Shown one piece after another: positions 26,376 through 27,170 of a DNA stretch of 64,000 bases; the first letter of the stretch is position 1, and every line of letters starts with the position of its first letter. Location: the NCBI GenBank assembly GCA_947627535.1, contig CANQWM010000004.1, forward strand, positions 1-64,000, given 5' to 3'. The translations under genes were made by a program, and so were the position numbers. The notes under the pieces were generated by a model. That model was not told where the DNA came from. It did no database searches and saw only the letters and a program-made list of their open reading frames with translations. The stretch comes from an uncultured Acetatifactor sp. GTDB lineage: Bacteria; Bacillota; Clostridia; Lachnospirales; Lachnospiraceae.

Positions 26376-26445
26376 TCATATTCCTGCCTTAAATTCAGCC
26401 ATTGAAATCCATACCGCCAGTTTCAAGGCAGGCTTCGCCATCCGC
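26376..26445 (-). other. Structured repeat element, copy B (between loaP-like gene and sugar dehydrogenase), with micro-ORF
   Basis: Shares the exact 14-mer GCGGATGGCGAAGC (minus strand, 26432-26445) with copy A. Inverted repeat CCTGCCTT/AAGGCAGG (26425-26432 / 26383-26390). Encodes MAKPALKLAVWISMAEFKAGI*. Confidence 0.6.
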
Positions 26446-26486
26446 ACATTTTACAGGTACGGATACATCCCTTCCCTACCTCTTCC

Positions 26487-27005
26487 CTACCTCTTCCCCA
26501 CCACTTCCAGCCCTACCTTCATCTTCACAATCCTGCCGAAAAACTCCACCTCCAGCACCGCCTGCCTGCCGTGCCGGTCGACATACACTACCTTTCCCGT
26601 CAGGTCCTTCAGCGGGCCTTCTGTGATAACCAGTTCCTTCCCGATATACTCTCCTACGCTGATCTCAAAGACCTTGTCCTGATTGATGTGCTTTCTCAGG
26701 AACTCCGTCTCTTCGTCGTACAGCGGGATCGGTCCCTCGTCATCCCCAAGAAGCTTCGTAAACTTCGGCACACTCTTAAGCGCCCGGTACAGTCTCTCGC
26801 TGTCCTCCGTCACAAAGAAGAGATATCCCGGAAACAGGACCATCTGCTTTTTGACCCACGCTCCGTTTTCCCTCCAGGGCTTTTCGTACTTGGGAAGGAA
26901 ACACTCCTCATAGACCTTCTGATCTCCCAGCCTTTTGTCACATATCGTTTTGACCTGTTCCTCCTGCCCGGTGGGGACCCATACCGCATACCACATTTCA
27001 CTCAC
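26487..27005 (-). CDS. loaP: LoaP/NusG-like transcription antiterminator
   Basis: MWYAVWVPTGQEEQVKTICDKRL; QMVLFPGYLFFVTED; C-terminal KOW-like VGEYIGKELVITEGPLKDLTGKVVYVDRHGRQAVLEVEFFGRIVKMKVGLEVV. Confidence 0.88.
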   Translation of the reverse strand: MSEMWYAVWVPTGQEEQVKTICDKRLGDQKVYEECFLPKYEKPWRENGAWVKKQMVLFPGYLFFVTEDSERLYRALKSVPKFTKLLGDDEGPIPLYDEETEFLRKHINQDKVFEISVGEYIGKELVITEGPLKDLTGKVVYVDRHGRQAVLEVEFFGRIVKMKVGLEVVGKR

Positions 27006-27050
27006 CTTTTTCCTGCCCTTCCGGACGGAAGGGCGCGCTTCGCCATCCGC
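27002..27050 (-). other. Structured repeat element, copy A (immediately upstream of loaP-like gene), with micro-ORF
   Basis: GCGGATGGCGAAGC at 27037-27050 followed by an 8-bp perfect hairpin GCCCTTCC-GTCC-GGAAGGGC (27015-27034). Encodes MAKRALPSGRAGKR*. Confidence 0.6.
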
Positions 27051-27170
27051 GCGGGATCCTGCGCAGCTTCCGATCCTCTATGCAGACATCCTCCGACAAT
27101 GTGCTCTGGGCAACAGTTACCTTCCTCTGTCCTTGTCTTGATCCAACACATTTCGTCATGGGGCTCATCA

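Follow-up and report, generated by a model that had tools for sequence, protein, structure and literature searches.

A conserved two-hairpin leader with a GC-GNA-GC motif beside loaP genes of gut Clostridia, and its possible role in recruiting LoaP

The loaP locus and the copies of its 14-mer

The window analysed here, the whole stretch of 64,000 nucleotides, carries on its minus strand an exopolysaccharide operon within which sits a 172-codon gene for a NusG paralog. A promoter-like site lies ahead of the first gene of the operon. Before the NusG paralog the operon encodes a Cps4B-like phosphatase, a chain-length protein, a tyrosine kinase, a sortase B, an LCP protein and a glycosyl-1-phosphate transferase, and after it a nucleotide-sugar dehydrogenase, a glycosyltransferase, a DUF362 protein and LicD. 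A first-pass annotation of this DNA had called the gene LoaP-like, and its match to NF033641, above the cut-off, bears this out (Table 1). Its start is more likely the ATG at 26996 than the GTG at 27005.

The gene is flanked by two exact copies of the 14-mer GCGGATGGCGAAGC, which the same annotation had noticed. Both lie on the same strand, one upstream (element A) and the other downstream (element B) of loaP, and they are the only two in the 64-kb window, where no further site was found even when two mismatches were allowed. By a rough estimate about 8 pairs of identical 14-mers are expected by chance in 64 kb, and such a pair is hence not rare; for a pair on one strand that lies within ~700 nt, the roughly estimated chance is ~0.001. 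In the 14-mer, GCGG forms the 3' arm of a hairpin that lies upstream (P1), and an A and TGGCGAAGC follow.

Table 1. Features of the loaP locus, in positions of the window
Feature	Position	Strand	Basis or remark
Promoter-like site	34205-34177	(-)	ahead of the operon's first gene
Element A, candidate P0 (GGUAA-C-UG-U-UGC-CCAGA-GCA-CA-UUGUC)	27095..27121	(-)	all core pairs standard
Element A, P1 (CUGCGC-AGGAUCCC-GCGCGG), 1 nt before UGGCGAAGC	27047..27066	(-)	fold -10.5 kcal/mol; R2 match 27028-27072 (site was in training set)
Element A, 14-mer	27037-27050	(-)	exact match
Element A, motif TGGCGAAGC + GCG	27034..27045	(-)	top 8-mer near loaP genes, position frequencies
Element A, predicted pause	Y-1 = 27035, +1 = 27034	(-)	position frequencies
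Inverted repeat P2 after element A (hairpin of the first-pass annotation)	27015..27034	(-)	lineage-specific
loaP (NusG paralog, antiterminator LoaP)	26487..27005	(-)	NF033641, 153 bits (cut-off 125)
Element B, P1 (CCGUAC-CUGUAAAAU-GUGCGG)	26442..26462	(-)	fold z -2.1; R2 E 4.8e-7 (in training set)
Element B, 14-mer	26432-26445	(-)	exact match
Element B, motif TGGCGAAGC + CTG; predicted pause 26430	26429..26440	(-)	exact 14-mer and R2
Inverted repeat P2 after element B (hairpin of the first-pass annotation)	26383..26432	(-)	lineage-specific, shared with L003

A third true copy, L003, is found in the genome (2.85 Mb in 53 contigs) at C1:242145, with GCGGGTGGCGAAGCCTGCC. It precedes a cluster with glycosyltransferases, an acyltransferase and a weak sulfotransferase match, with no loaP there, and element B is ~78% identical to its 3' half over 80 nt. 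A model of P1 and the motif (R2) finds exactly three sites at E < 0.01 in this genome, the next one standing at E = 0.2; all three were in the training set, which makes their E-values flattering, while the lack of further sites stands. The sequence TGGCGAAGC by itself occurs 51 times (28 times for a reversed control). When 30 of these sites were examined, the three real ones had P1 directly 5' of them, and about 4 of the 27 others folded comparably. A generic repeat, an alternative raised in the first-pass annotation, was rejected, as three sites in 2.85 Mb do not make a scattered repeat and the P1 context is largely confined to those three. L004 and L005, which differ from the 14-mer by one mismatch, appear to be coding. 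For the longer 19-mer GCGGRTGGCGAAGCCTGCC, no convincing non-coding copy was found in 60 same-genus genomes; its few near matches are chance-like and lack the P1 context, which indicates that conservation between species is limited to the core motif.

The inverted repeats beside the 14-mers and the micro-ORFs MAKRALPSGRAGKR and MAKPALKLAVWISMAEFKAGI are present in the window as had been described. The downstream inverted repeats (P2) were rejected as a conserved element, since they are lineage-specific and their pairing in the family is 0.57, against 0.49 in shuffled sequences. At L003 a degenerate tandem repeat (about TTTCAATGGTTGAATTTTAATGGCTGAG) occupies L003:1545-1660 between the arms of the P2 stem, and copy B has a single unit of it. 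In copy A (window 27002-27046) the stop codon TGA of the MAK micro-ORF overlaps the GTG start of loaP (GTGA).

A conserved, covarying leader nearly confined to loaP genomes

In its full form, present in most loaP leaders of relatives, in copies in trans and, with a candidate P0, as A in this window, the element consists of P0, a spacer (in most cases 25 to 60 nt), P1 and R - TGGCGAAGC - N Y R CCC, in this order. The P0 hairpin has a 3-nt loop, which varies among leaders (NUY, ACA, AGA, ACC) and is closed by three pairs; beneath these come a bulged U or A, two further pairs, another bulged base and an outer stem that reaches 14 pairs at most. It covaries in the ~80 leaders of relatives where it is found, with double changes at 15 of its 19 pairs and 296 double-changed cells against 107 in shuffled data (0 of 500 shuffles). 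Pairing amounts to 85%, and falls to 34-47% when the partner is slid, with 43 or 37% for a shift of one column. Sequences were selected by the core of P0, which accounts for part of its invariance; the outer stem played no role in the selection.

The motif was recovered by a blind word count. The 8-mer GGCGAAGC is the commonest one in the 500-nt flanks of the family loaP loci (24 of 35), and next in rank come its neighbours, an A-rich word and pieces of ATCGTCGCNTTGCCGCGTTT. It is again the top 8-mer (66 of 80) in named loaP loci found by protein similarity, which include Blautia, Dorea, Mediterraneibacter, Hungatella, Claveliimonas, Clostridium ljungdahlii and C. tetanomorphum; the two sets partly overlap (L048 and L097 give identical matches) and are not independent. 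As a control, 23 core-nusG loci (77 kb) contain it 3+1 times. In the 80-locus set it lies on the sense strand and upstream of loaP with one exception, and the 13 antisense matches are probably GCTTCGCC, as found inside many P0s. Across 72 leaders, the motif TGGCGAAGCNYR is accompanied by G at -10 (72/72), a pyrimidine at -1 (69/72, with T in 64) and a purine at +1 (69/72); GGCGAAGC itself was the search key for these frequencies, and the flanking bases were not. The natural variants GGCGGAGC keep the GNA rule.

Between P0 and the motif stands P1. The 30 nt before the motif in the 72 leaders fold with a mean of -7.4 kcal/mol, against -3.7 for shuffled sequences and -3.6 for a neighbouring window, and in 52 of the 72 the last paired base of P1 lies exactly 1 nt before TGGCGAAGC. 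P1 also covaries (44 double-changed cells against 18 in shuffled data), and none of 500 shuffles reaches the score. After 79 of the 83 P0s near loaP comes GGC-GNA-GC, with a spacing mode of 72-76 nt.

In the genome studied here, the P1 arms of L003 are CCGCAC/GUGCGG. The candidate P0 of element A lies 72 nt before GGCGAAGC, which is the family mode, and that of L003 lies 90 nt upstream of the motif; the two differ by compensation, U-A standing for C-G and A-U for G-C. Both are divergent, and neither was scored when the family P0 model (R1) was run on this genome, so that their homology to the family hairpin is inferred. Element B has no P0 upstream. The idea that the structures beside the 14-mers are LoaP-recognition hairpins holds in part: a conserved and covarying element does stand beside loaP, but its conserved hairpins lie upstream of the 14-mer, P1 directly and P0 ~72 nt further, and not downstream of it.

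The element is conserved beside loaP across Lachnospiraceae and some Clostridium. In the covariance-model search across family genomes, which had been suggested as a check, the matches are nearly confined to genomes with loaP. Among 299 such genomes, the P0 model finds the element in 16 of 30 with loaP and in 1 of 269 without it (Fisher p 2e-17). In the single exception (G110) the element lies ~80 nt from a contig end, and the loaP following it may be missing from the assembly. The P1/motif model, at E<=1e-3, matches 19 of 35 genomes with loaP and 0 of 35 without. Neither the window leader nor any of 11 related loci matched an Rfam family at gathering score, and the nearest match was RAGATH-28 with only 21 of 45 bits.

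Copies in trans precede DegT aminotransferase and glycosyltransferase genes. The loaP-distant copies L190, L196 and L197 stand before genes that read as DegT-type aminotransferases (a close relative was tested in Pfam), and L195 stands between loaP and a DegT-type aminotransferase-like gene. In one genome (G355) a further LoaP-like gene (L272) also has the motif ahead of it. Promoter-like sites before P0 are found in 24 of 81 cases (8.3 expected), and terminator-like sites after the motif in 9 of 63 leaders (0.3 expected), about five of them distinct.

In a same-genus genome (L249, L007, L095) a LoaP element and a variable polysaccharide cluster come directly after a gene with repeated helicase-associated (HA, PF03457) domains, and in the genome studied here the HA-repeat gene also has helicase domains (L094:1480-4008). 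This arrangement marks a conserved left boundary of exchangeable cassettes.

A proposed recruitment of LoaP and its likeness to known systems

The two 14-mers are probably, though by no means certainly, parts of two copies of a LoaP-loading leader that would act in cis on polysaccharide operons. Several results count against this reading. The exact motif is absent in 24 of 116 loaP loci (sets pooled, some redundant), no terminator lies between motif and loaP in most of the leaders scanned, the P0 of the genome studied here is divergent and unscored by R1, and the LoaP leaders of a Thermoanaerobacter-like group (genus tentative) have neither P0 nor P1/motif. In this last group (L206-L208, L211) another conserved leader, TTGTTGTAAACGGTCACTAAAGAAGGATTTTTAATG...CATGTCGAATACATC, stands before loaP and may be the LoaP signal of that branch. 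The loci without the motif and this different leader suggest that the element belongs to one LoaP branch.

Transcription of a full element would first make P0, to which LoaP would bind as an RNA handle. About 70 nt later P1 would form and stabilise a pause, its 3' end being placed ~11-12 nt behind the RNA 3' end at the N-Y/R step after TGGCGAAGC, with the Y after GGCGAAGCN as the predicted pause position. Such a spacing between hairpin and RNA 3' end is the geometry of hairpin-stabilised pauses. At the pause, the non-template strand would show a GC-GAA-GC mini-hairpin in the same register in which the GC-GGTA-GC of ops is shown to RfaH. The N-terminal domain of LoaP would dock on the mini-hairpin and on the polymerase, and the polymerase so modified would read through the terminators of the operon. 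Element B, having no P0, would give polymerase that was already loaded at A a second pause or checkpoint.

The display of the motif to LoaP as non-template DNA is proposed from the pause-like bases, the stability of GCGAAGC, the ops register and the variants that keep GNA; it is a plausible step, which we hold with somewhat more doubt than belief. The oligonucleotide d(GCGAAGC) forms an extraordinarily stable DNA mini-hairpin that melts at 78 C, and belongs to a class with GNA or GNNA loops and at least two G-C pairs (PMC4686876). Against the proposal stands the low stability that the mini-hairpin has in a generic DNA energy model. The LoaP of Bacillus velezensis binds leader ssDNA weakly and nonspecifically, in a polymerase-free assay whose ssDNA was taken from the region 5' of the dfn hairpin (PMC12691694). 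The same 2025 study found an RNA hairpin and no non-template DNA signal, leaving one possible in the active complex, and its text makes no mention of a P1 + TGGCGAAGC module or motif (PMC12691694). Taken as a whole, the recruitment of LoaP in gut Clostridia by two signals, the P0 RNA hairpin and an ops-like GC-GNA-GC DNA mini-hairpin at a P1-stabilised pause, is put forward tentatively.

The closest comparison is the dfn-mln system of B. velezensis. Here LoaP binds a hairpin of the dfn-leader RNA, which is essential, while a downstream pause helps and a terminator follows; at terminators LoaP counters NusA (PMC12691694). Both systems have a loaP gene, a leader RNA hairpin and long biosynthetic operons, and the order of promoter-like site, P0, P1/motif and gene, with terminator-like hairpins in some leaders, matches the layout of the dfn leader. 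In P0, bulges and a conserved core are combined with a 3-nt loop of variable sequence, so that it may differ from the UNCG tetraloop type bound by known LoaPs. Unlike in dfn-mln, P0 is followed by an almost invariant module of P1 and TGGCGAAGC, and the targets are polysaccharide and not polyketide operons.

With RfaH of E. coli and ops the element shares a NusG paralog, surface polysaccharide operons and a short conserved stretch of the non-template strand, here at a predicted consensus pause. In ops (GGCGGTAGCGTG) the pair C3:G8 closes the loop G4-A7 (GGTA, a GNNA loop; PMC5995543). The motif TGGCGAAGCNYR is not an ops element by sequence, and the likeness, one of sequence register only, lies in a putative GC-loop-GC hairpin in the same register to -1/+1, with G-10, Y-1 and a purine at +1. 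In contrast to ops, the loop would be a GAA triloop and not GGTA, an RNA hairpin lies directly behind the predicted pause with a second one 70 nt upstream, and the protein to be recruited would be LoaP and not RfaH.

Two further systems can be compared. In hisL-type pauses an RNA hairpin lies ~11-12 nt behind the RNA 3' end, with a pyrimidine at -1 and a purine at +1. The spacing of P1 and both bases agree with this type, but the element adjoins a dedicated antiterminator gene and carries the conserved GCGAAGC. The EAR or epsC RNA (RF01735) is the leader of Bacillus eps operons and is tied to processive antitermination. The present element is likewise a leader RNA of exopolysaccharide operons with a predicted link to processive antitermination; unlike EAR, the window leader and the 11 related loci stay below the gathering score of every Rfam family.

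Alternative explanations and significance

The module of P1 and TGGCGAAGC could be a mere strong pause for RNA polymerase, NusA or core NusG, at which a P0-bound LoaP would gain time and read no DNA. The P1 spacing and the Y-1/R+1 bases fit a hairpin pause, and the pause between hairpin and terminator in the dfn leader assists LoaP (PMC12691694). A generic pause, however, needs no nearly invariant GCGAAGC across dozens of leaders and would not be limited to loaP genomes, and this explanation appears rather unlikely. That the motif is read as RNA is improbable. LoaP is indeed an RNA-binding NusG paralog (PMC12691694), for which P1-UGGCGAAGC might be a second RNA site, and the P0-loop sequence GCnUYGCC is nearly complementary to GGCGAAGC, with which it might pair. 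But the variants of the P0 loop (ACA, AGA, ACC) and of the motif (GGA) do not co-vary, and the motif is in most leaders followed by A, so that of the GGC/GCC stem only two pairs would form within the RNA.

A leader peptide or upstream ORF (MAKxAL) controlling loaP through translation, one of the earlier suggestions, did not survive the comparison and is very improbable. In 72 of 72 leaders a purine precedes TGG (ATG 57, GTG 14, GGG 1) and the micro-ORF of copy A overlaps the loaP start. Yet no synonymous variation is seen at the codons GCG and AAG, substitutions hit the second codon position, variants read MAE and MVK, ORFs in this frame are as long as those in the other frames, and no Shine-Dalgarno sequence stands at a usable distance because P1 occupies the space. 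A recombination or mobile-element boundary hitch-hiking with exchangeable polysaccharide cassettes, also suggested earlier, keeps the boundary in some genomes, such as the same-genus one where the element follows the helicase-associated-repeat gene before variable clusters, and B and L003 are related copies. As a mobile repeat it falls to the presence of just three copies per genome in fixed orientation, the conserved covarying architecture and the close tie to loaP in unrelated neighbourhoods, and its likelihood is close to nil.

The element is a compact and highly conserved candidate, in dozens of gut species, for the signal by which LoaP finds its operons. If the two-signal proposal is true, recognition of a stable GNA or GNNA DNA mini-hairpin in the bubble would be common to RfaH and LoaP, which stand on distant branches of the NusG paralogs, and the natural variants of the motif make this idea directly testable. 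The element is also a search tool for LoaP regulons, and has revealed polysaccharide clusters in gut Lachnospiraceae that would be targeted in trans. The surface polysaccharides of these bacteria are important for colonisation and for their interaction with the host. In one genome (G321; L051, L078-L083) eight loaP genes pass the cut-off; several of them have a P1/motif of their own and divergent upstream hairpins, which offers a chance to study LoaP specificity inside one cell.
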